Origin: Butyrivibrio sp. | GTDB lineage: Bacteria; Bacillota; Clostridia; Lachnospirales; Lachnospiraceae | Assembly: GCA_017446685.1 (NCBI GenBank) | Contig: JAFSQI010000060.1 | Location: forward strand, 1-37,355 | Length of the DNA: 37,355 nt | Reading direction: 5' to 3' | Part shown: in pieces, positions 3 through 34,462 of the stretch | Numbering within the stretch: the first letter of the stretch is position 1 | Layout: the number at the start of each line of letters is the position of its first letter | Made by a program: the position numbers and the translations under genes | The notes under the pieces: model-generated | Databases searched by the model: none | What the model was told of the DNA's origin: nothing | What the model saw: the letters and a program-made list of their open reading frames with translations, nothing else

Positions 3-147
3 GTTACTGTTCACTCGCATACTGCTCGCTCCAGTAACCACTTCGCGCATTCATTCCAAATCGACTTCGTCGATGGAATGCGCTCACTCCTGCATCATGT
101 TCTCACGAAATGCGCAGCTTAGTGCGCATTTCTGTCTGAACAGTAAC
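3..147. repeat. nested palindromic (MITE/REP-like) element at end of operon
   Basis: An 11-bp perfect inverted repeat, GTTACTGTTCA at 3-13 and TGAACAGTAAC at 137-147, encloses two further hairpins. The first pairs GCGCATTC (45-52) with GAATGCGC (76-83) and has an inner stem ATCGAC/GTCGAT (60-65/69-74). The second pairs GAAATGCGCA (107-116) with TGCGCATTTC (123-132). This compact nested dyad looks like a small non-autonomous mobile or REP-like element. It overlaps the 3' end of the LacI-type gene. The left boundary may continue beyond the window. Element identity is inference; the pairing is seen directly. Confidence 0.55.
107..132 (-). terminator. hairpin overlapping the regulator stop codon
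   Basis: A 10-bp perfect stem with a 6-nt loop contains the TAA stop (119-121) of the LacI-type gene in its loop. On the minus strand no clear T-tract follows, so it may act as a 3' stabiliser or a Rho-independent-like stop of modest strength rather than a classic terminator. It is also the inner hairpin of the palindromic element at 3-147. Confidence 0.35.
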
Positions 148-14845: not shown

Positions 14846-14870
14846 TGCCCTACATAATAGGCAACAAAAA
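14846..14870. repeat. 25-nt direct repeat, copy 1
   Basis: TGCCCTACATAATAG, then G, then CAACAAAAA. The same 25 nt recur at 23529-23553 with a single G/A difference, in the same orientation. The copy lies just past the terminator stem of the acetyltransferase gene and its A-run forms that terminator's T-tract. Together the two copies bracket the giant kinase-like/acetyltransferase pair. Confidence 0.8.
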
Positions 14871-14892: not shown

Positions 14893-14942
14893 CTTTGTTT
14901 TTGAATACTGTTAGAGAATTTTTCAGGGTACTACAGCGCTTT

Positions 14943-15884
14943 TCATTCATGGCTCTTTGTAAGAACACTGCATATATCTGCGAAACTCTGTATCGGTTCA
15001 AACTCCTCCATCGCATTATAATAGTTATCTACCGAGGTTGAGCATAAGGAAGTCTCAACAGGGTCTTTTTTCACAAGATCTTTTACCAAATCAAGATCCT
15101 TGTCATTGTACTTGATCACATGGACTTTTTTATCCATACCGTACTTTTTTGATGCTGCCATTGTCGCTCCAAGGCAGAGATCCATGTCATCCTTCCTGTC
15201 TTTTCCGCAAAGACCTGTTACATAAAGATCATCCTCACTGTTCTGGACAAGGATGGTTCCCTTTATGCCTTTCTCATCCAAAAGAACCCTTGACACATCA
15301 GGGTCTGCAAATTCATCGGCAAAAGCCGGATCATACAGAAAATTATCTTCATCATTATCAATCAAGTATTTCTTCAGCTTAAGCTGCTGCCCGGCATCAA
15401 GGCTTTTTAGGGCTCCGGTATCAGAGTAATCCTTTGCCGCCTTTGCCATATTGGGATTTTTTAAAAGATCTTCCACTGAAAAAATCCACTCTCCGGAATG
15501 TTCATCCTCGTCTGTAAAATTAAAATCAGACAAAAAATCTTCCTCAAAGACACAAAGCTTATCTCTATCGGGAAGCCTGTCCCTGCTGAGATAGAGCCTG
15601 TCACAGCCTGCAGAAACCGCCGCCTTAAAGGCATAACCCATAAGAGTGCTTCCAAGTCCACGCTTTCTAAGTTCCTCCCGAACAAAAATCCATTCCACAA
15701 TGACCTTTTTTTCCATCATATGAAGGATCATAAGGGCGGCAGGAACATCGTTCCCGCCGTCCTTTCTCTCCAGCACTGTTCCAAGACATACTCTGTCCGG
15801 GAATAAAGCCCTTTTTAGTAATCCAAAGGGATCAAGTTCTGCAAAATAATCAAGATGTTCCTCGAGTACAATTGCAGTTTTCAT
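14943..15884 (-). CDS. GNAT-type N-acetyltransferase with a second C-terminal domain
   Basis: 313 residues. The N-terminal half shows the GNAT acetyl-CoA loop in VREELRKRGLGSTLMGYAF (R-x-x-G-x-G) after the strand KKVIVEWIF, and a following strand CDRLYLSRD. The C-terminal half (about 160-300) has a second alpha/beta segment with TILVQNSEDDLYVTGLCG and no clear acetyl-CoA loop, so it may be a degenerate GNAT repeat or a substrate domain. ATG overlaps the stop of the giant upstream gene by 4 nt (ATGA), so translation is coupled and the two proteins probably act together. The substrate is unknown; the giant partner is a candidate (inference). Confidence 0.82.
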   Translation of the reverse strand: MKTAIVLEEHLDYFAELDPFGLLKRALFPDRVCLGTVLERKDGGNDVPAALMILHMMEKKVIVEWIFVREELRKRGLGSTLMGYAFKAAVSAGCDRLYLSRDRLPDRDKLCVFEEDFLSDFNFTDEDEHSGEWIFSVEDLLKNPNMAKAAKDYSDTGALKSLDAGQQLKLKKYLIDNDEDNFLYDPAFADEFADPDVSRVLLDEKGIKGTILVQNSEDDLYVTGLCGKDRKDDMDLCLGATMAASKKYGMDKKVHVIKYNDKDLDLVKDLVKKDPVETSLCSTSVDNYYNAMEEFEPIQSFADICSVLTKSHE

Positions 15885-18800
15885 AAATCATTTCCTCTCA
15901 TTCTGTTCCACATCATCTTTATAAATTCCGTCGTTGTAAGGTTTCTCTTTTGTATATCCCCCTGAATCCTGAAACCATACTTCACGGATTTGAAGAAGCT
16001 TACCCTCTTTAAAGCTTCCCTGTACTTAACATCGATTACATCTCCCATTACATCAACGAAGGTCTTTGGATCATCATAGTCGATGGCAAACATTGCATTA
16101 CCTTTCCTGCTTTCGCCAAAGGAAATAAACACCGGCATCCTGTAGGCCTCCACAAAGTTATTTAAAAGCTCCTCCTTATTAGGCGCATCTGCCGGGGCAG
16201 CCTTATAAGCATCAAAGGCTTCCTTAAGCCGCTGACCGTATATGGGATCTGCAAAAAACGGTTTAAGCTCTTCTTCTGCCTGCGGAAGATTTGCAGGAAC
16301 TCTGAGCTTTGTTTTGACATTTGCAAATATCTTATCTAATTTATAATACGACTCACCCTTTTCTTTGTCACGCTGTTTCCTCTGAGCCAGGTCATTTACC
16401 TCTACGCCATCATAAAACTCCTCGATGCGGGCAACTAACTGAGACTCCGCTCTTTCCAGGTAGCTTTGCTTTGTATGGCCTATTCTCTGTATTACAATAT
16501 CTTCCAACGCCTTAAGTTCTTCCTCGTTCTTACCCTCATCCTGAGCTTTCCAGAGATCTCTTAGCGCTCCAAGTATATTAAACTCTGAATAGATATGCAT
16601 GATTTCTGTGGCAATGCCCAGCTTCTCCTCATATGGAATCTCGTCAAAGTGAGCTGCGTAATCCTGAACCTGCTGCTGTGGTGATCTGCCGTCGTTCTGC
16701 ATGTTAAAGCCATGGTCAGTGAGTACCTGATAAAATTTTGATATATCGAAAAAATTCGATCCAACAAGACCATGCTGCTGTTTTATCATTCTTTCTGAAC
16801 TCAGCGTCGAGTTTATAAGTATTGAAGGATCCTCACTAAGCAGTGTGGCAAGGCTGTCGAAATCCTCATGGAAAATATTCTCAAGACTCTTTCTAACGCC
16901 TTCATTACGACTCTTAAGCAGCGGCCTTAGATCTTCTTCCTTGTCAGATAAAACTGCAATCTTCATATTGCCCGCAGCACCTGCATCTTCATTGATAGTC
17001 TTATCAAATTCTGACTTTACATCCAGTATTGTTGCATTCTGAGCAGCCTGAAGCTGTCTTAAGATTTTTTGCATTTCTATGACTTCCTTGTTAAAGGAGT
17101 CAAGAGTATTCATAAGTCTTATCTGGCACTGCTGGAAGCCGTAGATAGCCGGCGGAAGCTCAAATCCCAGTTTCTGCGCCCTTACAAGAGCAGCTGCTAT
17201 CCTCTCAGCACTTGAATGATAGTCTCCAAGCTTCATTACCTCAGAAAATACAGCCTGCAGCTCATCCTTCTTTGTCTCAAGAAGCTTAGTGGAATCTTCT
17301 CCAAGGAGCGCTGTGAAGCCCTCCATAAACCCTGAGCCGCTGCCTGCTGCTGCTGCCATCAGCATCATGGTTATCTTTTCCTGTTGGAACTTATCCAGCT
17401 TAGTAGCATTACCAAAATCGATCACGGTTAGTCTGTGGCTGTCCAGCATTATATTGCCGGAATGAAGGTCGCCGTGGTAATACCCTTCCCCGAAAACCGC
17501 CTCTGTAACCCACTTTTCAGAGAGCTTGCAGAGCATTTGCTGCTGTCTTTGTAATGTGGCAAGTTTTCTGGAAAGATCCGCTATTGTATTCTGCACATCT
17601 GCTCCATTGGAAACGAAGATCTTGGGGTTTTCACCCTCCATAATGAGCTTACCTTCTTCGTCCTTTTTGTAGAACTTACCTACAATATCATCACGGTCTT
17701 TTCTTGACTTTTTAAGGACATTGATGACAGTATCCCCGTTAGCCCTGTTCACCATCATTGCATTCGGTGTGGGATTTGCAAGACTACTTACTTTCATGGA
17801 CTCAACATGATTTTCATTGTCATCATAAATTCGGCCGCGCTCACAGTTTGCTGCCTCGATGGTAAGGTCAAGCTCCTCCATATAACGTGTCAGAAGGCCA
17901 TCATAGGTCTTTGCCATTCCTTTGCCGGCCTTTGCTGCACATTTCTGCATGATCTTCTTTTCCCTCAGCATCCTGTTACGTACATCAGGGCGAAGAAGTT
18001 TGATAACGACTTCACTGGGAGTAAGGCTGTTCCTTGTATAGACCTTGCAAAGAAAAGCCTGTCCCACAGATGCTGCACCGAGGGATCTTGTTACTTCGAT
18101 CCTCTCTATCCTGCCGTTGGATCTCTGAACCATTGAAAGAAGCTGAGCCTCCACGATTGGTCTCGGGATTGGAGCAAGGTTAGATTTCATATCATCAAAA
18201 GCATCCTGCATTCCGGCAGGGATCATTGAATCCGGAATTCCCTGAAGGATTTTCTGAAGTAGTGGTCCTGCTCCCTTGAACAAGCCTCCAACCATTGGCG
18301 CTATGGCCTTGTTTTTCTGTTCCTCAGTGGCATCTTCGGGAAGGTTTACAGGTTTTGCATTCCTTATGGCTGAAGCAAACATGCTCCTGACATCGAGAAT
18401 ATTGCTGTCTGCAACGTAGGTGGACAAAACATTTCTTACAAACTGTCCTTCACCATCATTGCCCTTCATGGAGTTATTTACCATCTTAGTGAGCTGCGCT
18501 TTTCCAAGGTCAATACGACGCTGTCTCTCTTCGTCCTCAATTCCCTGTTCCTTATAATATGGCACCTGTTCTATGGGTTCAGGCTGTACAGCCTCTCCCA
18601 TATTCTTGTTGATGTACTTTTCCATCTCCGCCTTTGCCCCACGCAAAAGCTTATGCACCTTCACCTCCAGTTCCTTCTGGATATCGGCGGCCTCCTGGAG
18701 CTTTTCATTTAAATCAGCTCCATCCTTATTTTCCAGCGCACGCTTCGTGCCGAAAGTAATAAGATAATCATCCGACATTGTAAGAAGCATATAATCAATA

Positions 18801-21800
18801 AAGGAATCATCATCCTTACCGGCATCCTCTATCTCTTTAGCCCATTTTTCATCCTCAATGAAATCCTGAGCATCTCTTTGCGCTTTTCTTTCCTCACGGG
18901 CTTTCTTTCGCTCTTCACGGGCTTTCTGGCGCTCTTTGATCTTTTCTATTTCATCATTGCGCTTTTGCTCCCTCTCCCGGATCTGAGGATCGATATTCTC
19001 CTCTTCTTTTTTCTCCTCCTGCTTTTTTTCTTCTTCCTTCTCCTCTTTCTTTTCTTCTACCTTATCTTCCTGCTTTTCTTCTTCCTCGTCATCGTCGCCA
19101 CCGCCCAGCCAGCTAAATGAGAAGAAGCTCTTTACCTTGGCCTGTAGCCTTTCCTGCTCTTTTCTTTGCTTTTCAATTCTTTCGGCTTCTTCCTTATCAA
19201 GCTGTTTTTCAAGTTCAGCAATAGCATCCAGGTGCTCCTGGTTATAATCAAGCCTCTGCCCCTCTTCTAATGCCTTCAGGGCTCTTTCATCCTGCTCTGC
19301 CTGCCTGCGGTCTTCTTCTTCTTCCTTAAGGTCAGCTATAACCTGTTTATCATTTGCCCATTTTTCTGAGCGCTTTTGTTTTTTCTGCTCAACCTGCCCC
19401 CTCTTGGCATTTCTTAACTGTTCCCTGCCATTTTCACGCTCTCTGGCAGCAGCCTGTTCTTGCCGAAGAAGAGGTATGGCCAGCTCGCGCGCTTTTTCAA
19501 GATACTCAAACACATCTTCTGTAATAAACGCCTTATCAATGCCAAACATTGACAGGGGCAGCTTATCAGCAAAGGTATTAAGGAGCTGCTTTGTCTTTTT
19601 CACATCTCCCATCCACTTTCCGATGACATCTCCGTACTTTTTCACGATATTGAAAAGTCTCATGCCGGGCTGTGTCTCATTATCCATATCCCAGGTATCC
19701 TGAGAATAAATGATCTCTGCCACAACATCCAAAAGCTGCTGCTCGTCATAACTCCATTCTGAAGGCTTGATCTCCTGTTTTATCCTATTCTCACGCTCCT
19801 GGCGCCTTTGCTTTATCTGCTCAATTTCTACATCCAGCTGCCTTCCGATTTTTTCGTATTCCTCCTTGACTTTGCGAATGGAATCAACAGACTTGTTGAG
19901 TTTCTCCTTCTCTTCATCAAGAAGATCATCATCGTCCTTGAGACTGACGAGATTTATTGCAATCTCATCTCTTCTTTTTTCAAATTTTTCCCTCGCCTCG
20001 TTTACTTTCTGAGAACGGCTTTTCTTAACATTTTCGTTGAGTTCATGAAGCTTTGCCTCATAGTCTGCAAATGCTTCATTAAGGGCTGTCTCCCCTTTTT
20101 TCTGAGAAAGGGCTTTGCTCTGAATCTGCTCCCTGATCTGCATGGCAGTCCTATCATATTCGTCAGAAAGCCGGAGTTTTTCATCTACAGTTTCATCAAT
20201 CTCATCTATCAGCGAAGAAAGCACACCGTTTCTAAGGTCAGTCATTCTGGTGAATTCCCTTGAAAGCTCATCCTTCCTCTTGGCAGCGGTCTCCTCCTTT
20301 ATCTTACCGGTCTTTACCTTCTCCTCAAGCTTTTGAAGTTCTAAAGCGTAAGCAGCTTCCGCATCATTCTGCATCTTAAGCCTATCGGCAAACACTTTAT
20401 TAATGGCTTCTTCTTTTTCTTTCGGGACAGGGTGAAACACCTCCATCATAGGAGCCTGAAGCTGACTCTGTTCCAGTGTGAGTTCAGCACGTTTTTTCTT
20501 GTTTTCTTCCTTTTTCTTCTCAATCTCCCTGACACGCTTATCTCTTTTTTCTATAACGCTGTCAAGCTGTTCTTTTGCCTGGTAGATATTCCCTTCGGCT
20601 TCTATACGTTTTTTTTCTTTCTCCGTCTGCTCCTTTAGATCTTTTTCCTCTTCGTATTCATCAGTATAGACAACCTTAGTCTTAAGAGTACCATCCTCTA
20701 TGCTCTTATCGCGAATGCGCAAAAGCTCAAGGGTATCCTCGCCGTTTACCTTAATATCCGTAATTGTCTCAAGATCAGCGCTCTTAAGCTCGTCATAATC
20801 GGCTTTCACATCCCTGTAGTCTTCTACCAGCTTGTTATGACGCTTTTTTGTTTCTTCCGCGGCTTTTTGCTCATCTGCCCTTTTCTTTACGTCCTTTTCT
20901 ATGGCAGCTTTCCACTCCCAGAAATTCAGAGGCATGTTCTCAAGGGAGTGAATCTGCTGATCATTCTCAACTACCTGGAAGTCACCCAGCACTGCACCAA
21001 GATCCCGCGTCTTCTCACGCCTGTAGAAATCCTTCCATTGATTGAACTTACCTCGAATCAGATTAAGCTCACTAATCTTTGATTCCATCTGTGTGTCAGC
21101 CTTAAGCGCCGCCGTTTCATACTTAAGGTTTTCCTGGTCTATCTGAAGGTTGACGGCAAGTAATGCGTCAGACGCTTCTCTGGTTCGCCTGTCAATTCGC
21201 TCGGTTCTTCTTCTAAGCTTCAGATCCTGTCTCTCATTCCACTCTGCAAGATGCCTCGAACTTTCTTCGGTTAGTTCATGAATATTTCTTTCAAGTTCCT
21301 TAAAGAGCCATTTCTCTTCTGCTTCAAAAAGCTCCTTATTATCCTTATTCTCTTCTCTGGCTTTCTTTACATCCTCTTCATATTTTTTCCGCAGTACATC
21401 TATCTTCGCGGCATGACCTTCCATATATTCCGTTGCATAGTTTGCACGCTTAATAATCTGATCGGCCTCGAAGTCCTTTTCTCTCTGTGCCTGCTCGAGA
21501 AATTTGTTCATTCTCGCAGTAAGCTGTTCCTTTCTATAGGCTAGCTCCCATAGCCTTTCGTCATGTTTCTGCATAGCTTCATCCTTTAAGGACTCAGCCT
21601 CATTTCTAATGCTCTGCTCCTGGATATTAAGACTCTGCTCGTAAAGAATTGCTTCCTCAGGAAATTCTATATCAGGCTGTTGCTGCTGGTTTACAGGCTG
21701 AGCATTTTGTACCTGCTGGGGCTCATTTTCCTGGTTCTGCCCCTGTACTTGGTTTTGACCCTGTACCTGGTTCTGAGCCTGAACCTGCTCCTGATTCTGG

Positions 21801-23389
21801 TTCTGCGCCTGATTCTGTGCATTTTCAAGAGCCTGTTCATTTTCCTCTTTACTAAACTTATCCAGTTCCTCTTTCTGCTTAAACTGCTTTTCCATGCTCT
21901 CAATGGATCTGAAGCCTTCCTGACGGGCACTTTCGTTTAGCTGGTTTCTCTTATTTTTCAGTTCCTGAAGTTTAGTTCTTTTTTCCGCTTTCTTGGCGTT
22001 CTTATCGCCATACTCATAGTCATTGATCTTTTTAAGAGCCTGCGCACTGCTGAGCCTGCCGCCTTCCATGCGCTTTGCCATTCTTACGATTTCCTTTGAT
22101 GGAATGTTGGTGAGCTTTATATTTGGAATTCCCAGCCTTGTTCTAAGGTAAGCTGCGGCAATTTCGGCGTAGCGGCTCTTTTTAAGATCTGTGGTCTCAT
22201 TTGTTATGTTTTCTGTCTCCAGCATGATCTTTTTTGTATTTTCAACACCAAATATCTTCTCATTCTCCACCATATTAATTCCAAGCTTATGGACAAGGTC
22301 ACTGGCAGAGATATTGAGGTTGCTTACTTTAGTAAGCTTATGCCCCTCTTCATCTACATAATTGTATCCCAGATCAAGAGTACCGTCTTCCTTTTGAAAG
22401 AGGTTCACAATATTCTCTCCCACAATAAAGGAGCAGCAGTTCTTTTCACCCTCTTTAAAGCTGGCCAGCATATTCCGGACATTCATAAGAAAGTCTCTGG
22501 CAAATTTCTTGTCCTTGGCATTCTGTCCATAGTTTTTGACCAGAATATCAGCAGGCACTTTCAAATTTACGGCATCATAAAAGAGCCGCATCTCACCGGC
22601 CATGTTTTCTTCTTCCATCATTGATATGCTAAAGGAATAATAAGAATAGTTTTTAAGTGAGCTCTGGCTTTTTTCCATCTCTTCTTTTTCTGCTTCTGTA
22701 TAAGAACCTGATTCATTCATATATCTTTGTGAATCAACTATAAGGTCCTTTACACATTCAGCATTAGCGCCCATTTTGCCGCGGAAAACCATCTGCTTGG
22801 CGAAGCTTAACTTGTTCATCTCGTCAAGCATATTGTTCATGGTAGCACGAACAAGCTGATATCTCTCAATTCCTTTTGGTGAAGATGGTTCCCTGTCACC
22901 AAGATAAGCCCTGCAGGCTACGATGGCATCCTGATACTTAAAGGCTGCATCCTCCAAAGCCATGGCTCTCTTAAGACCGACAGCCCTGGAAGTGTCCCCG
23001 GGCGCAATGTTTTGCCAGATCGGTGTCACAAGCATAATTTCAACTGCTTCCACAGTTTCCTTGACACGCTGCATCTTATCGCTGTCTTTTTTATAACGGC
23101 GGGAATTAAGGAGCATATGTGCCAGATTTCTTCCCTTCATGGATTTAAGCTTTGATTTCTGAATGTTACTCAACTTAAACTGCTTTGAGTTCTCAATGGC
23201 ATAGCCTATAAGCTCATTTTCACGTATGGCTTTTTTTACAGAGACATCCGCAGCATCCTTCTGCCTCTCTCCATATTTCATCGGCACGAACTCATGATAT
23301 GGGTTCTGCTCATCTTCAAAATTAGTCAGCCTGTTGACCTCAATGTTTATCTTGTTTATTTCATTTTTGTTAAGTTTTAAGAAATCCAT
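15881..23389 (-). CDS. giant coiled-coil protein with ABC1/AarF/UbiB-type kinase-like domain
   Basis: 2,502 residues from ATG 23389 (GGAAGGAGCAGATT upstream; longer readings lack a site). Residues 1-515 are helical and unrecognised. A Q/N repeat tract follows (about 520-570), then long charged coiled coils (about 590-1420) and a nearly pure E/K segment (about 1426-1510). The kinase-like domain shows GPLLQKILQGIP (about 1710, a variant of the family KxGQ motif), the Ala-rich loop GAASVGQAFLCKV, VVIKLLRPDV (ATP lysine), EELDLTIEAANCERG (Glu), HGDLHSGNIML (catalytic Asp and metal Asn) and VIDFGNATKL. All key residues are present, so it may bind or hydrolyse ATP. About 500 further residues follow. 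UbiB proteins are usually about 550 residues with membrane helices; none are visible here. Function unknown. Confidence 0.85.
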   Translation of the reverse strand: MDFLKLNKNEINKINIEVNRLTNFEDEQNPYHEFVPMKYGERQKDAADVSVKKAIRENELIGYAIENSKQFKLSNIQKSKLKSMKGRNLAHMLLNSRRYKKDSDKMQRVKETVEAVEIMLVTPIWQNIAPGDTSRAVGLKRAMALEDAAFKYQDAIVACRAYLGDREPSSPKGIERYQLVRATMNNMLDEMNKLSFAKQMVFRGKMGANAECVKDLIVDSQRYMNESGSYTEAEKEEMEKSQSSLKNYSYYSFSISMMEEENMAGEMRLFYDAVNLKVPADILVKNYGQNAKDKKFARDFLMNVRNMLASFKEGEKNCCSFIVGENIVNLFQKEDGTLDLGYNYVDEEGHKLTKVSNLNISASDLVHKLGINMVENEKIFGVENTKKIMLETENITNETTDLKKSRYAEIAAAYLRTRLGIPNIKLTNIPSKEIVRMAKRMEGGRLSSAQALKKINDYEYGDKNAKKAEKRTKLQELKNKRNQLNESARQEGFRSIESMEKQFKQKEELDKFSKEENEQALENAQNQAQNQNQEQVQAQNQVQGQNQVQGQNQENEPQQVQNAQPVNQQQQPDIEFPEEAILYEQSLNIQEQSIRNEAESLKDEAMQKHDERLWELAYRKEQLTARMNKFLEQAQREKDFEADQIIKRANYATEYMEGHAAKIDVLRKKYEEDVKKAREENKDNKELFEAEEKWLFKELERNIHELTEESSRHLAEWNERQDLKLRRRTERIDRRTREASDALLAVNLQIDQENLKYETAALKADTQMESKISELNLIRGKFNQWKDFYRREKTRDLGAVLGDFQVVENDQQIHSLENMPLNFWEWKAAIEKDVKKRADEQKAAEETKKRHNKLVEDYRDVKADYDELKSADLETITDIKVNGEDTLELLRIRDKSIEDGTLKTKVVYTDEYEEEKDLKEQTEKEKKRIEAEGNIYQAKEQLDSVIEKRDKRVREIEKKKEENKKKRAELTLEQSQLQAPMMEVFHPVPKEKEEAINKVFADRLKMQNDAEAAYALELQKLEEKVKTGKIKEETAAKRKDELSREFTRMTDLRNGVLSSLIDEIDETVDEKLRLSDEYDRTAMQIREQIQSKALSQKKGETALNEAFADYEAKLHELNENVKKSRSQKVNEAREKFEKRRDEIAINLVSLKDDDDLLDEEKEKLNKSVDSIRKVKEEYEKIGRQLDVEIEQIKQRRQERENRIKQEIKPSEWSYDEQQLLDVVAEIIYSQDTWDMDNETQPGMRLFNIVKKYGDVIGKWMGDVKKTKQLLNTFADKLPLSMFGIDKAFITEDVFEYLEKARELAIPLLRQEQAAARERENGREQLRNAKRGQVEQKKQKRSEKWANDKQVIADLKEEEEDRRQAEQDERALKALEEGQRLDYNQEHLDAIAELEKQLDKEEAERIEKQRKEQERLQAKVKSFFSFSWLGGGDDDEEEEKQEDKVEEKKEEKEEEKKQEEKKEEENIDPQIREREQKRNDEIEKIKERQKAREERKKAREERKAQRDAQDFIEDEKWAKEIEDAGKDDDSFIDYMLLTMSDDYLITFGTKRALENKDGADLNEKLQEAADIQKELEVKVHKLLRGAKAEMEKYINKNMGEAVQPEPIEQVPYYKEQGIEDEERQRRIDLGKAQLTKMVNNSMKGNDGEGQFVRNVLSTYVADSNILDVRSMFASAIRNAKPVNLPEDATEEQKNKAIAPMVGGLFKGAGPLLQKILQGIPDSMIPAGMQDAFDDMKSNLAPIPRPIVEAQLLSMVQRSNGRIERIEVTRSLGAASVGQAFLCKVYTRNSLTPSEVVIKLLRPDVRNRMLREKKIMQKCAAKAGKGMAKTYDGLLTRYMEELDLTIEAANCERGRIYDDNENHVESMKVSSLANPTPNAMMVNRANGDTVINVLKKSRKDRDDIVGKFYKKDEEGKLIMEGENPKIFVSNGADVQNTIADLSRKLATLQRQQQMLCKLSEKWVTEAVFGEGYYHGDLHSGNIMLDSHRLTVIDFGNATKLDKFQQEKITMMLMAAAAGSGSGFMEGFTALLGEDSTKLLETKKDELQAVFSEVMKLGDYHSSAERIAAALVRAQKLGFELPPAIYGFQQCQIRLMNTLDSFNKEVIEMQKILRQLQAAQNATILDVKSEFDKTINEDAGAAGNMKIAVLSDKEEDLRPLLKSRNEGVRKSLENIFHEDFDSLATLLSEDPSILINSTLSSERMIKQQHGLVGSNFFDISKFYQVLTDHGFNMQNDGRSPQQQVQDYAAHFDEIPYEEKLGIATEIMHIYSEFNILGALRDLWKAQDEGKNEEELKALEDIVIQRIGHTKQSYLERAESQLVARIEEFYDGVEVNDLAQRKQRDKEKGESYYKLDKIFANVKTKLRVPANLPQAEEELKPFFADPIYGQRLKEAFDAYKAAPADAPNKEELLNNFVEAYRMPVFISFGESRKGNAMFAIDYDDPKTFVDVMGDVIDVKYREALKRVSFFKSVKYGFRIQGDIQKRNLTTTEFIKMMWNRMRGNDL
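18860..19110 (-). repeat. E/K-rich low-complexity coding tract
   Basis: Inside the giant gene, the coding strand is almost all purine and encodes runs such as EEKKEEKEEEKKQEEKKEE, then KAREERKKAREERKAQRD. The segment separates the coiled-coil half from the kinase-like half and is probably a long charged single helix or flexible spacer. Confidence 0.75.
21690..21830 (-). repeat. Q/N-rich tandem repeat tract in the giant gene
   Basis: Imperfect tandem repeats of about 18-21 nt encode QNQVQGQNQVQGQNQ and related units. The segment sits between the N-terminal helical region and the coiled coils. Slippage could vary its length between strains. Confidence 0.75.
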
Positions 23390-23528
23390 AATCTGCTCCT
23401 TCCGATGCTTAATGCTTATACATATCTTTTCTTCACTATAAAATGTGTACAAAGGTCATATATTAATACAATACTCTATGATTTATACGAATGACAATGA
23501 CCATCTGTAAAAACAGGAGCTGTCCCCG

Positions 23529-23553
23529 TGCCCTACATAATAGACAACAAAAA
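23529..23553. repeat. 25-nt direct repeat, copy 2
   Basis: TGCCCTACATAATAG, then A, then CAACAAAAA; 24 of 25 bases equal the copy at 14846-14870, same orientation. Again a terminator stem lies on its high-coordinate side. Confidence 0.8.
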
Positions 23554-23654: not shown

Positions 23655-24776
23655 TTACAGTCTTTTTTCGGCTTCTTCAGCTGCCTTCGTCTGAACCACC
23701 AGCTTCTCCATATCATACCTTGCAAACTCAAAGCATGCCAAAAGCTTTGGTGAAAATGCTCCTGTTTCTCCGCCTTTAATCATTGAATACGCCTTGTCCA
23801 TCGGATAAGCTGCCTTGTAAACTCTGTCGCTGACAAGAGCATCATATACATCTGCAATAGCTGTAAACTGGGCAGCAATGGAGTTCTCTTCACCCTTCAA
23901 ACCGTCAGGATAACCGCTTCCATCCCATCTCTCGTGATGGTGCCTGCAGATATCAAGGCACATTTCATAATATTCCTTGTCCTGCACATCCTTTAGTCGC
24001 TCTATGATTTCACTTCCCCTTGTGGTATGTGACTTCATAACATCAAACTCTTCGCTCGTAAGTCTGCCCGGCTTTAGAAGTATTGAATCCGGAACAGAAA
24101 TCTTTCCTATGTCATGCATAGCAGATGCCTGCGTCATAACATCGATGAGATGAGGATTAAGTCCCATTTCAGGATAATTATTCATGGCGGTTATTGCCAG
24201 AATTCTTACAAAGCCCTTTATTCTTTTTAGATGATAGCTTGATTCCATGCTTCTAAACTCAACAATATTTGCTATTGTATCAATAACACGCTCATTGCTG
24301 TTGCGAAGCTTTTCCTCCTGCTTTTTAAGATAAAGAAACTGTTTTTTCAGAACTCTTGACTGATCATCCACCTGGGTCTCAAGATTGTTCTTGTGATCAT
24401 AAAGTTCAACAGTTCTTGATACTCTTTTATCTACAATAACAGGATCGAAAGGTTTATGTATAACATCCGCTGCGCCCTTCTGATAACTTGTACGTTCAGC
24501 ATCAGTTGACGTATCAGCAGTTATCATAAGAACCGGAATTGTCTCATTAAGATTATCTTTTTCCTGCATAGCTTCAAGGACGGCATAACCATCCATCACA
24601 GGCATGACAATATCAAGAAGAACAGCAGCAAGCGATTCACCATACTTTTCCATCATTGTCATCGCTTCCAAGCCATCGCCGGCTTCTATGATATTATACT
24701 TTCCTTTAAAAATCTCACCGAGAATTCCTCTGTTGATTTCATTATCATCAACAATGAGAATTGAGCGGTCTGCCAT
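23655..24776 (-). CDS. response regulator with HD-GYP c-di-GMP phosphodiesterase domain
   Basis: 373 residues from ATG 24776, six bases after GGAGGG (a longer reading would start with TTG in that site). Receiver domain about 1-125: ILIVDDNEIN acidic pair, phosphorylated Asp in AVLLDIVMPVMDGY, conserved Lys in DVIHKPFDP. A coiled linker (about 130-165) leads to an HD-GYP domain with ASAMHDIGKISVPD and RWDGSGYPDGLKG, the metal and GYP motifs, so c-di-GMP hydrolysis is expected. No histidine kinase is nearby; it is an orphan regulator. It lies 59 bases after the thiolase stop with no terminator between, so read-through is possible, and it has its own strong terminator. Confidence 0.93.
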   Translation of the reverse strand: MADRSILIVDDNEINRGILGEIFKGKYNIIEAGDGLEAMTMMEKYGESLAAVLLDIVMPVMDGYAVLEAMQEKDNLNETIPVLMITADTSTDAERTSYQKGAADVIHKPFDPVIVDKRVSRTVELYDHKNNLETQVDDQSRVLKKQFLYLKKQEEKLRNSNERVIDTIANIVEFRSMESSYHLKRIKGFVRILAITAMNNYPEMGLNPHLIDVMTQASAMHDIGKISVPDSILLKPGRLTSEEFDVMKSHTTRGSEIIERLKDVQDKEYYEMCLDICRHHHERWDGSGYPDGLKGEENSIAAQFTAIADVYDALVSDRVYKAAYPMDKAYSMIKGGETGAFSPKLLACFEFARYDMEKLVVQTKAAEEAEKRL

Positions 24777-24835
24777 AAATGCACCCTCCAATTATAAGAA
24801 AAAATAATACAACGCTCTCTTCAAACTATATTTAA

Positions 24836-26017
24836 TTATCTCTCAACAATTGCTGCACAGCCCATTCCACCGCCTACACAAAGTGTGGCAAGTCCCTTGT
24901 GGACGTCACGTCTTTGCATCTCATAAAGAAGTGAAACAAGGATTCTGTTTCCTGAGCATCCAACAGGATGTCCAAGAGCAATTGCTCCACCATTTACATT
25001 AAGCACGTCACTACTAAATCCCAGGTCATGCTGAACTGCAACTGATTGAGCAGCAAATGCTTCATTAGCCTCAATGAGGTCAAAATCTCCGATTGAATAT
25101 CCAGCCTTAGCCATAACCTTCTTGGTTGCTGCTACAGGACCGATTCCCATGATACTTGGCTCTACACCTGCAAGCTCACCTGCAATCCATGTTCCGAGCG
25201 GCTTAACACCAAGCTCTTTTGCCTTTTCCTCACTCATAACAATGATTGCACTGGCAGCATCATTGATACCTGATGAGTTTGCTGCTGTTACTACTCCGCC
25301 GTCCTTCTTGAAAGCAGGCTTTAAGTGAGAAATACTCTCAACAGTTACACCCTTTCTTGGTCCTTCATCTGTATCAAAAATAATTGTCTCTTTCTTTTTC
25401 TTTATTTCGACAGGAACGATTTCTTCCTTGAATTTGCCAGCTGCAATTGCTGCCTCAGCCTTATTCTGTGACCATGCTGCAAATTCATCAAGCTGCTGCC
25501 TTGTAAGGTGCCACTGCTCAGCAATATTCTCAGCTGTGATTCCCATGTGATAACCACCAAATGCATCTGTAAGAGCATCCTTGATCATAGCATCCTGAAG
25601 TTCTCCGGAACCCATTCTGTATCCGTATCTGCCCTGCTGCATAAGGTAAGGAGCCATTGACATATTTTCCATTCCACCTGCAACAATAATATCAGCATCA
25701 CCCATTCCAATGAGCTTAGCAGCAAGATTTACACAGTGAAGACCTGATCCGCAAAGTACATTTATAGTAGTAGCCGGAACCTCTACAGGAATTCCCGCAT
25801 TAATTGCTGACTGTCTTGCCGGATTCTGTCCAAGACCTGCCTGGATAACGCATCCCATATAAACTTCATCAACCTGTTCAGGCTTAACACCTGCTCTCTT
25901 AAGTGCCTCCTTAATAACTATAGCTCCAAGAGCCGGTGCCGGTGTAGTTGAAAGGGCACCTCCCATTGTTCCGATTGCTGTTCTGCACGCACCTGCAAGT
26001 ACTACTTTTCTCGCCAT
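24836..26017 (-). CDS. thlA: acetyl-CoA acetyltransferase (thiolase)
   Basis: 393 residues, the usual length, from ATG 26017 with GGAGGAAG upstream. It condenses two acetyl-CoA to acetoacetyl-CoA, the first step towards butyryl-CoA. Catalytic Cys is in [14 protein letters not shown] (about residue 88), His in [14 protein letters not shown] (about 348) and the second Cys in [10 protein letters not shown] (about 378). The N-terminus [19 protein letters not shown] is typical. The rest of the butyrate gene set is not next to it here. It has its own promoter (26048-26077). The symbol follows clostridial naming; atoB is equivalent. Confidence 0.95.
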
Positions 26018-26047
26018 AACTTCCTCCATTTTTTGTATAAAAATTAA

Positions 26048-26077
26048 ATTATAATTAATTTTATCACTTTTTAACAA
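26048..26077 (-). promoter_or_regulatory. promoter of the thiolase gene
   Basis: On the minus strand: TTGTTA (26072-26077), an 18-nt AT-rich spacer and a perfect TATAAT (26048-26053), about 30 nt before the start codon at 26017. Confidence 0.6.
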
Positions 26078-32436: not shown

Positions 32437-32580
32437 CTATCTTTTTACCACGTAGAATCTGTATAGTTTTTCTTTCTCGTCATCGATATCCTTATACATC
32501 TTAGTTTCCATCAATTTAAATCCACATTTTTCAGCCGTCTTCCAAGATGGTACGTTTGCATCCTTGATCTTAGTAATCAC
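32437..32580 (-). pseudogene. C-terminal remnant of a GNAT acetyltransferase
   Basis: A 47-codon minus-strand reading from a GTG at 32580 contains NVPSWKTAEKCGFKLMETK and ends LYRFYVVKR. The N-x-x-S-x-x-x-x-E-K-x-G-F motif is the conserved C-terminal part of RimJ/RimL-type GNAT enzymes. The acetyl-CoA loop and N-terminal two thirds are missing; the reading starts inside the stop of the upstream 413-residue gene. Best read as a truncated leftover, unrelated to the intact GNAT at 14943. Confidence 0.65.
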
Positions 32581-33818
32581 ATAATATGCTTCTCAGCATT
32601 GATCATACTTGTATTTGCCACCTGCTTTACAACATCAAATACTGAGCCCATCATACCCATGATGCCTCCGGACTCTTCTCCATCTCCGCCCGGTTTATTT
32701 GAGCCTATCATCGCAACATTCTTGGACACTGTATGAACAGCGCTTTCCTGCTCCTCTGTGCAGAAAACTTTTGCGCAGTTCTTGATCTGGAGTCTGTCGC
32801 AGATGAGCTTTGGCTCTACATCCTTATCTATTGATAACATGGCACAGTTCATTACTCTTACGCCCTTTTCATTAGCCATAAGAAGTGCCCTGTCAACTTT
32901 CGCCTTAGCACTGTTAACTATATTCTTTCCCTCAAAAAGATATTCAACTTCACCTGCATCAATATCAACATGCTTCATTTCCAGATACATGCTCTCCCTT
33001 ACAGTAAGGGTTCCTGTCACAGTCAGCTTTTCCAACTTATCAAGCCTTGTAAATTCTGTTGATACTGTAAGATCTCCGTCAACATACAACCTGCTTCCAC
33101 TTTTATCAAACAGGGCATCATTTAGTTCTGCATCGCCTTTTACAAAAGTCATTTCTTCAGGGATTACATTTATCCTGGTTGAAATATCAAACAATCCGGC
33201 AAGCTTCTCCACCTTGCTCTCACGCATGACCACGCAGGGAGTCTCAAATCTCACATTCTTCTCCACTAACTTGTCTGCGTCAACTGCGTCTTCGATAATA
33301 AGCTTTTTAGCGATATAGTACTTTTCGTTTTCCTTAACCCGGAGCGGAAAGAACTTATCCATAACAAATTTTGAATCAAGCATGACTGCATCCTCAGGAT
33401 AAATTACTGTTGGCCCATTTATGAGCATTTTGTCAGTATACCTTTTCATACTTCTCGGGCAGTATAATGGACCATTTACACGCATATATACATACTGTTC
33501 CATTACCTCCTCAGAGCCGGGCTCGATTGTGACTTTTCCATTAGCGAACAGGATTACCTTATTCTGTGGTTTCGCCCCCTTTGAAATAACTTCTTTTCCA
33601 TTATTAATCCTGCTCTCAACAATCTCATCCTCAGCCACATCGACAATTGCCTCACTATTGATAACAGCCCCAAGCTTGTTCAGGATTTCCCTGCTCCTTG
33701 GGCTGGCAATAAGCACTTCTGCATTTATGATTATCCTCTTATATCCTTCGTAAACATCTTCCTTCATCTGTCTTGAATCACATACTTCTGCATTTATAAC
33801 AAGATTTTCTTTTGACAT
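32577..33818 (-). CDS. unrecognised protein coupled to ECF sigma factor, repeat-strand rich
   Basis: 413 residues. No signal peptide or membrane helix is clear. The middle (about 90-350) is a succession of short strand-like units such as SRLYVDGDLTVSTEFTRLDK, KLTVTGTLTVRESMYLEMK and VMNCAMLSIDKD, suggesting a beta-helix or bactofilin-like stacked fold. Short INAEV units occur near residues 9 and 31 and again as INAEK at the end. A Gly/Met-rich segment (about 375-395) precedes the C-terminal helix. It begins 6 nt after the sigma factor stop (GAGG upstream), so the pair is coupled. It may be a sigma-controlled structural or sensing protein; function unknown. Confidence 0.75.
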   Translation of the reverse strand: MSKENLVINAEVCDSRQMKEDVYEGYKRIIINAEVLIASPRSREILNKLGAVINSEAIVDVAEDEIVESRINNGKEVISKGAKPQNKVILFANGKVTIEPGSEEVMEQYVYMRVNGPLYCPRSMKRYTDKMLINGPTVIYPEDAVMLDSKFVMDKFFPLRVKENEKYYIAKKLIIEDAVDADKLVEKNVRFETPCVVMRESKVEKLAGLFDISTRINVIPEEMTFVKGDAELNDALFDKSGSRLYVDGDLTVSTEFTRLDKLEKLTVTGTLTVRESMYLEMKHVDIDAGEVEYLFEGKNIVNSAKAKVDRALLMANEKGVRVMNCAMLSIDKDVEPKLICDRLQIKNCAKVFCTEEQESAVHTVSKNVAMIGSNKPGGDGEESGGIMGMMGSVFDVVKQVANTSMINAEKHIM

Positions 33819-33824
33819 TCCTCT

Positions 33825-34301
33825 TCACCTCTTCCAATAGTTTTTCATTGATGTTCTCAGTGTTTTTCTCGCCATACTCATCTCATATCTGACCGTACCT
33901 GATGGCATCTCAAGTATCTTTCCGATATCTTCAGCAGTATAGCCTTCCACATATCTCATGTACATTATTACGCCCTGCCTGCCCGGAAGTTCTTCCAAAA
34001 GCTGCGACCACTCAATCCTGGAATAATCTTCAGGCTCCTCCATCGATTCAGAAATTTCATCATCAGGACTTTTCCTAAGTGTTCCGGCTCTAACTGCATC
34101 TATGTAGATGTTGCGTGCTGTTCTATAGAGCCATGATCTCACCTGTTTTTCATGAAGTGTTCTCAGTAGTTCCTGATTTACAGTTGCCCTGACAAAGGTT
34201 TCCTGAACAACATCTTCCGAAAGCTGTCTGCTGTCGCACATTCTGTAGATGTATGCAAGCATATCTTTATTGAATTGTTGAAAAATCGCTTCAAGTTCCA
34301 T
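33825..34301 (-). CDS. ECF-type RNA polymerase sigma factor
   Basis: 158 residues from ATG 34301 (MELEAIFQQFN, the usual start of region 2); an ATG at 34340 would add 13 residues. Region 2 shows MLAYIYRMCDSRQLSEDVVQETFVRA and WLYRTARNIYID. Region 4 shows ELPGRQGVIMYMRYVEGYTAEDIGKILEMPSGTVRYEMSMA split over about 110-145, with the DNA-binding helix-turn-helix. No anti-sigma factor with a zinc finger or membrane anchor is adjacent; the next gene is the 413-residue protein. The start has only a weak ribosome binding site, so it may depend on translation of the overlapping upstream ORF. Confidence 0.9.
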   Translation of the reverse strand: MELEAIFQQFNKDMLAYIYRMCDSRQLSEDVVQETFVRATVNQELLRTLHEKQVRSWLYRTARNIYIDAVRAGTLRKSPDDEISESMEEPEDYSRIEWSQLLEELPGRQGVIMYMRYVEGYTAEDIGKILEMPSGTVRYEMSMARKTLRTSMKNYWKR

Positions 34302-34462
34302 CGTTCTCTTTTCCCTACAGCACTCTCTCCCATCCTCCATATTTCTGCAAGCGGCACAGAATACTCAAGCCGCTCGCTCTTTGCCCATGCCGGTACAGAG
34401 TATACATTCCCTATAGCACAGCCAGAGCCATATATTTCCATGTACATATTTCGGGTATCCAT
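34178..34462 (-). CDS. small overlapping ORF with strong ribosome binding site ahead of sigma factor
   Basis: 94 codons. ATG 34462 is preceded by AAGGAGGAACCGTC, the best site in this unit. The first 53 residues (from MDTRNMYMEIYGSGCAIGNV) lie upstream of the sigma factor and the rest overlaps it in another frame (from WNLKRF on it is just a shadow of sigma region 2). It could be a leader ORF that couples translation to the sigma factor, a small protein, or a gene whose own stop was lost by a frameshift. No family recognised. Confidence 0.4.
   Translation of the reverse strand: MDTRNMYMEIYGSGCAIGNVYSVPAWAKSERLEYSVPLAEIWRMGESAVGKRERWNLKRFFNNSIKICLHTSTECATADSFRKMLFRKPLSGQL

Follow-up and report, generated by a model that had tools for sequence, protein, structure and literature searches.

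A giant ABC1-domain protein and its GNAT-like partner in what reads as a mobile cassette of Butyrivibrio

UbiB/ABC1 proteins are ancient, and COQ8A/ADCK3 and Escherichia coli UbiB combine a kinase-like fold and an N-terminal helical extension with an Ala-rich loop, KxGQ, ExD, catalytic and DFG motifs. In a review (PMC4718504), the Ala-rich loop, KxGQ and ExD are described as "brakes" and the biochemical role of these proteins as still debated. ABC1 proteins outside quinone work are already known, such as Rv3197 (MABP-1) and MSMEG_1954, and the abstract of PMC8696161 reports that mycobacterial ABC1 has ATPase activity and is linked to macrolide resistance. Here, we describe another bacterial ABC1 domain outside UbiB, found in a 37,355-nt stretch of a Butyrivibrio sp. 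assembly (GCA_017446685.1, contig JAFSQI010000060.1, positions 1 to 37,355; hereafter the window), where it is part of a 2,502-residue protein encoded next to a GNAT-like gene. This giant is of more interest in its genomic setting than alone, as the larger half of a mobile giant and GNAT cassette bearing a divergent ABC1 domain with intact catalytic residues. No published description of such a cassette was found in the open-licence PMC literature (among the top-ranked matches for longer listings), and the family, the reading of its kinase C-lobe, the GNAT pairing and the mobility of the ~8.6-kb cassette are new here. The giant is laid out as follows (residue numbers are those of the protein).

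15881..23389, minus strand: giant ABC1 protein, 2,502 aa; ATG at 23389, stop at 15881-15883
22178..23152, minus strand: NT module, residues 80-404, helical with a four-stranded sheet (profile and model)
21590..21889, minus strand: Q/N-rich tract, residues 501-600 (composition)
19820..21592, minus strand: coiled-coil-like, fast-evolving region, about residues 600-1190 (heptad-like period, divergence and omega)
19562..19822, minus strand: CEN module, residues 1190-1276 (profile, 69/78 giants)
18770..19192, minus strand: E/K-rich linker, about residues 1400-1540 (composition)
18302..18544, minus strand: PRE module, residues 1616-1696, helices N-terminal to the kinase (profile, 77/78 giants)
17300..18319, minus strand: ABC1 kinase core, residues 1691-2030 (Pfam, profile, model and hhalign)
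18242..18253, minus strand: KILQ, variant of UbiB KxGQ, residues 1713-1716 (motif alignment)
18068..18079, minus strand: Ala-rich loop GAAS, residues 1771-1774 (motif alignment)
17453..17476, minus strand: catalytic loop HGDLHSGN, residues 1972-1979 (both H, D and N in 85/85)
17411..17419, minus strand: DFG, residues 1991-1993 (D and G in 85/85; F 77, Y 8)
17048..17257, minus strand: POST module, residues 2045-2114, interpreted as helices of the kinase C-lobe
16190..17047, minus strand: putative insert in the kinase C-lobe, helical and variable, residues 2115-2400 (model, COQ8A alignment and omega)
15974..16186, minus strand: CT module, residues 2402-2472, last helices covered by the COQ8A alignment

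By fold and profile, the giant belongs to the ABC1 superfamily. A preliminary description, made from the letters of this DNA, had recognized the 2,502-residue open reading frame (ORF), which is real and lies on the minus strand, and in it an ABC1/UbiB-like domain with the ATP Lys, a Glu, HGDLHSGN, DFG and a KILQ variant; both the motif positions and the PF03109 (ABC1) score (E 1.4e-15, 57.6 bits vs a curated Pfam cut-off of 22.9) bear this out. Of 24 other giants, 21 match the same profile at E<=0.01, and a marginal APH match was also present in the window giant. The structure search that had been suggested as a check locates a kinase-like fold at the motif region: the predicted model of the C-terminal part has a COQ8A-like fold with an N-terminal helical extension, and its structural matches include Rv3197 and MSMEG_1954. 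When the PDB was searched by sequence, the kinase alignment matched 5yjz (Rv3197) best, at E 3.2e-6, and no match at E<=0.001 came from the alignment of the entire C-terminal part. In hhalign, E. coli UbiB and the C-terminal alignment were paired with a probability of 96.8 (E 2.2e-10), which places KFGQ of UbiB opposite KILQ and HADMHPGN opposite HGDLHSGN.

Motif conservation was assessed in an alignment of 85 kinase domains (the window domain, 78 giants and six tandem paralogues; a further tandem paralogue, n484, is a near-copy of n474 and was used in the tree and left out of this count). Lys1797, Glu1845, His1972, Asp1974, Asn1979, Asp1991 and Gly1993 are invariant in all 85. The ExD motif, ELD at 1839-1841 in the window giant (with Glu1845 following), has E in 85 and D in 81 (N in 4), and the Ala-rich loop reads G-(A 83/S 2)-A-(S 84/T 1), its always-Ala third position being one that we equate by motif with COQ8A Ala339. 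At the KxGQ position, K and Q are kept in 85/85 and Gly in none, the third residue being L in 63, M in 19, V in 2 and I in 1. Because catalytic residues are intact and the UbiB brakes are mostly retained, we would expect a braked ATPase or an atypical kinase, not a standard protein kinase.

The giant should not be filed as UbiB, because a hydrophobic residue replaces the KxGQ Gly, the score against the UbiB equivalog TIGR01982 of NCBIfam (60.8 bits) does not reach the cut-off of 487.55, and no membrane helix is seen by hydropathy, the one measure applied (best 19-residue mean 0.98 vs 1.78 in E. coli UbiB). The lack of membrane helices had been noticed before, and a hydropathy value of 1.6 is reached by only 2 of 78 giants. 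Unlike COQ8A and UbiB, the giants also have a variable C-lobe helical insert, are built into a coiled-coil protein, are frequently paired with GNAT genes and are laterally mobile; unlike the giant, Rv3197 and MSMEG_1954 are chains of 439-452 aa with no giant scaffold. Two other assignments were tried and rejected. TCAD9 (PF19974, ternary complex associated domain 9), and with it a ternary conflict system, was raised by weak local matches that 18 of 24 giants show at E<=0.01, and was dropped on score and length: the matches cover ~30 residues at the catalytic loop, four giants individually scored 15.4-24.1 vs a curated cut-off of 40, and the window giant has no Pfam match to it at E<=1. Four other ABC1 profile matches in the same genome (assembly 88.75% complete), three of them over the cut-off, were considered as canonical UbiB or paralogues and look like ordinary Ser/Thr kinases on visual inspection of how their sequences begin and of their context.

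Outside the kinase, the NT module has a confident model, for which no clear fold match was found, and the N-terminal model closes with a 67-residue helix (residues 448-514). The Q/N tract and E/K-rich stretch reported earlier are present by composition (42 Q/N in residues 501-600; 29 K/R and 37 D/E in residues 1401-1500). The proposed coiled coil is supported in residues 600-1190, where the 3.5-residue period of hydrophobic residues exceeds 200/200 shuffles, and by the 67-residue helix, a basis of periodicity and model; for a cytoskeletal-like role, this coiled coil is the one piece of evidence. What had been taken for a separate 500-residue C-terminus is best read as kinase C-lobe plus a helical insert at 2115-2400, because the modules at 2045-2114 and 2402-2472 both lie inside the COQ8A-aligned stretch of the model.

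Far from being a single oddity, the giant is a member of a coherent family with conserved modules outside the kinase, as judged from sequence profiles. A species-representative scan gave 240 relatives, the best 80 of which correspond to 78 loci in 50 assemblies, 17 with at least two loci; eight loci are from Succinivibrionaceae, eight carry looser labels (Clostridiales, Eubacterium, "bacterium") and the remainder are from Lachnospiraceae. Carriers include the cultured Succinivibrio dextrinosolvens DSM 3072 (L112) and Lachnospiraceae bacterium XBB2008 (L119), which is presumably an isolate. The family spans two phyla, patchily, and among 61 congeneric genomes relatives of residues 1631-2115 occur in 12 (including the window's own), the same 12 being found with the kinase alignment, and NT module matches occur in 20, eight of which are without the kinase. 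Giants were counted as complete when their ORF stops short of the contig ends; by this criterion there are 62, of 755-2,740 aa, and some of them (such as the 755-aa ORF of locus L052) may be fragments of disrupted genes. Six module profiles (NT, CEN, PRE, KIN, POST and CT) recur across the family; because 24 of the 78 giants were used to build them, the other 54 give the fair recovery figures (NT 42, CEN 45, PRE 53, KIN 54, POST 54 and CT 46). In the unrooted kinase tree of 86 rows, the ten Succinivibrionaceae rows share one side of a branch with full support, and their position among Lachnospiraceae is poorly supported.

Almost identical 1,483-aa kinase paralogues are present in a Succinatimonas assembly and in Succinivibrio dextrinosolvens ACV-10 (L120 12388-16836 and L121 14208-18656), and the giants adjoining them diverge more than the paralogues themselves. 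Locus L031 (3515-13820, G000:C4) has a second giant ORF of 2,076 aa, which gave no match in the NT profile search, next to smaller genes and an ORF of 564 aa that matches ABC1 weakly. At L062 (2179-6369), a 1,397-aa ORF lies ahead of the giant and has a calpain-like peptidase match slightly under the cut-off (21.8 vs 23.8 bits).

The check for recurrence proposed earlier was also carried out: the architecture recurs, and a GNAT-A or GNAT-B gene lies directly 3' of the giant in 40 of 70 loci and is its immediate neighbor, 5' or 3', in 43 of 78. The partner in the window resembles GNAT acetyltransferases in passing the Pfam cut-off for PF00583 (Acetyltransf_1; E 9.6e-8, 32.8 bits vs 20.7) and in having PDB sequence matches (E 1.7e-4 and weaker), and differs from them in its length of ~310 aa, with a second half without Pfam match. 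The acetyl-CoA loop motif of GNATs is [QR]xxGx[GA], and that of the partner reads RKRGLG. Giant and partner, with the sequences that bound them, are placed as follows.

14919..23517, no strand assigned: putative mobile two-gene cassette (giant and GNAT), ~8.6 kb; homology is lost beyond the ends in two near-identical copies
14943..15884, minus strand: GNAT-like partner, 313 aa; its start codon overlaps the stop codon of the giant (ATGA)
14846-14870, plus strand: 25-bp direct repeat, left copy, just outside the cassette end
23529-23553, plus strand: 25-bp direct repeat, right copy, just outside the cassette end
23655..26077, minus strand: flanking genes for an HD-GYP response regulator and a thiolase, which stay paired in the 29 other congeneric loci examined

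The pair has moved laterally, and it reads as a recently transferred mobile cassette with an insertion-like footprint. By blastn, L045 (G044:C43) is 98.4% identical to window positions 14919-17487, up to its contig end, and L046 (in the same record as L043, G017:C106) is 97.9% and 93.6% identical over 16115-23517, broken at a contig end; neither matches the window past the cassette ends, where the flanks are unrelated. The two copies of the direct repeat are identical at 24 of 25 positions, and 100 shuffles yielded none; the 3.24-Mb assembly has just these two copies when up to 2 mismatches in the 23-bp core are allowed, and no recombinase gene was seen among the cassette genes. The thiolase/HD-GYP pair is common to all 29 other loci listed (among 58 genomes with a match), followed in at least 14 by an ORF that we take to be rlmL-like. 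In G007, the cassette lies between genes that we take to be ribF and rpsO-pnp; among 29 further ribF loci listed, rpsO lies within ~200 nt in seven (including the window's genome) and within ~1 kb in two, and the remaining 20 have no rpsO within 1.5 kb. The cassette is a recent and traceable gene transfer. Phage, plasmid or viral origin was considered as well, and the searches gave no support for it. A dispersed 145-bp repeat was also noted at window positions 3-147, L033 5910-6054 and L174 15381-15525, with 98.6% identity to G000:C4 and 90% to G007, where it ends adjoining the GNAT gene of the cassette.

The near copies allow regions to be compared for selection, with counts so small that the contrast between regions matters and not the exact values: between the window and L046, omega is 0.54 for the whole giant, 0.20 for the kinase, 0.11 for the CEN-linker part, 0.60 for the N-terminal part, 0.68 for the Q/N tract and coiled coil and 1.56 for the C-lobe insert. 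Against L045, it is 1.05 for GNAT and 0.68 for the C-terminal part of the giant, and against L051 0.09 for the kinase, with dS near 2. Over residues 574-1425, the window giant is 35% identical to the G044 giant.

The explanation we favor, at somewhat less than even confidence, is that of a laterally mobile two-gene accessory cassette encoding a conflict-type machine with a UbiB-like ATPase or kinase. In the giant, a long coiled-coil-like arm joins a globular N-terminal module, which is conserved, to a UbiB/ABC1-type nucleotide-binding domain at the C-terminal end. This ABC1 domain may work either as a braked ATPase or as an atypical kinase and be switched by a ligand bound to the N-terminal module or to the fast-evolving C-lobe insert; the GNAT partner might acetylate or otherwise regulate the giant or its target, and the benefit would be accessory (competition, defense or another conflict role) and not core metabolism. 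An accessory or effector-like character has some support from the patchy distribution and lateral transfer. It is possible, if rather doubtful, that these genes represent a new type of mobile cassette for conflict or defense in gut bacteria, in which a UbiB-type braked ATPase or kinase is the motor or effector end of a coiled-coil giant with a cognate GNAT-like partner, and in which the kinase end can be swapped for other ends on the same N-terminal module. As a mobile branch without membrane helices that keeps the catalytic residues and most UbiB brakes, the family offers an independent system for asking what the ABC1 fold does.

Several observations weigh against the conflict cassette. The conflict role is our best guess from sequence. 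PADLOC 2.0.0 detected 0 families at E<=0.1 in the giant and GNAT, and near giants there is no excess of defense families (54 families/132 neighbor ORFs vs 65/132 control ORFs; the 20 control windows were chosen by hand in G000, G058, G189, G240 and G416, at a distance from known giants, and the Pfam and PADLOC neighbor sets leave out 28 ORFs for length and ORFs recognized by GNAT and module profiles, with the top 25 families listed), so that the defense-like role proposed earlier finds no support in the sense of a defense-island context. The giant was not found in phage or plasmid records, and viral-contig matches were three, weak and of <=44 residues. Because there is no known defense match, no nearby defense excess and no phage or plasmid copy, the conflict reading receives modest weight. 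Both near-identical copies belong to other assemblies, built from metagenomes, and each covers one end, with binning errors possible, and a direct repeat of at least 15 exact bases was found at 1 of 51 loci, the window (shuffled flank pairs average 0.05). The acetyl-CoA loop is intact in only 38 of 57 aligned neighboring partners. A GNAT-cluster gene is found in 0 of 8 Succinivibrionaceae loci (one without a neighbor ORF and one with three), and the partner is therefore not universal. In the genus scan, GNAT-A at E<=1e-40 occurs in 11 of 61 genomes, namely 10/12 with a kinase giant vs 1/49 without, a co-occurrence that is partly built in, as seven of the ten genomes supplied GNAT profile rows as giant neighbors. 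In the other three (G009, G010 and G051), the GNAT sits on a different contig from the kinase giant; the giant genomes G017 and G032 have no GNAT-A match at E<=1e-40, and at E<=1e-10 GNAT-A is present in 16 of 61 genomes, six without a kinase giant. 

The N-terminal module is also found with GNAT where the kinase is missing. Around 11 GNAT-A genes remote from kinase giants, in loci chosen for GNAT and including two pairs of near-copies and one locus (L151) resembling a kinase-less remnant, eight loci have an NT-module ORF and none has a kinase. Kinase-less NT proteins are encoded, for example, at L145, L149 and L152. L151 (9066-11204) is GNAT-flanked and has NT and CT modules in separate ORFs without kinase, perhaps a decayed or rearranged giant.

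An internal signaling scaffold, in which the giant would be a regulated kinase or ATPase platform under RsbU/V/W-type partner switching and c-di-GMP-type signaling with GNAT as modifier, is given smaller weight than the conflict reading and appears somewhat unlikely. It draws on a row of SpoIIE-like, HATPase-like, STAS-like (these three named from sequence reading), GNAT, giant and GNAT genes at L071, on Pfam SpoIIE next to giants in G002, G044:C10 and G058, and on home-made two-sequence profiles that found SpoIIE at 13 and STAS at 10 of 78 giant loci (1,199 kb) vs 1/20 and 0/20 control windows (400 kb). However, each of the 20 giant-bearing genomes searched has 2-25 SpoIIE matches, and about five lie within 10 kb of a kinase giant vs roughly one expected; Pfam tallies of non-GNAT neighbors (the top 25 families listed for neighbors and controls) are near those of the controls, with GGDEF 3 vs 3, and SpoIIE and STAS are found twice each among the 132 neighbor ORFs and are absent from the 25 families listed for the control. 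Although the window giant comes after an HD-GYP regulator, that gene is present without the cassette in relatives. Partner-switching-type genes stand beside the giant at some loci (L071 and L041, with Pfam SpoIIE at the place of L041) and not generally, and such a neighborhood as a general feature was rejected for weak or no excess over controls. The giant could also be delivered to act in another cell (a bacterium or gut protist), the GNAT-like protein serving as chaperone or immunity partner, which we consider improbable. That the giant does UbiB-like housekeeping work, in the metabolism of quinones or isoprenoid lipids, is very unlikely: the fold and motifs are near those of UbiB, but the giant is patchy, laterally moved and multi-copy, it lacks a membrane helix and the KxGQ Gly (absent in 85/85) and scores far under the equivalog cut-off, and nothing pointed to a quinone link in an analysis that made no search for quinone genes.

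Elsewhere in the window, positions 32577-34340 include a gene for a 413-aa protein without Pfam match at E<=0.01, which lies directly after an ECF sigma factor gene.

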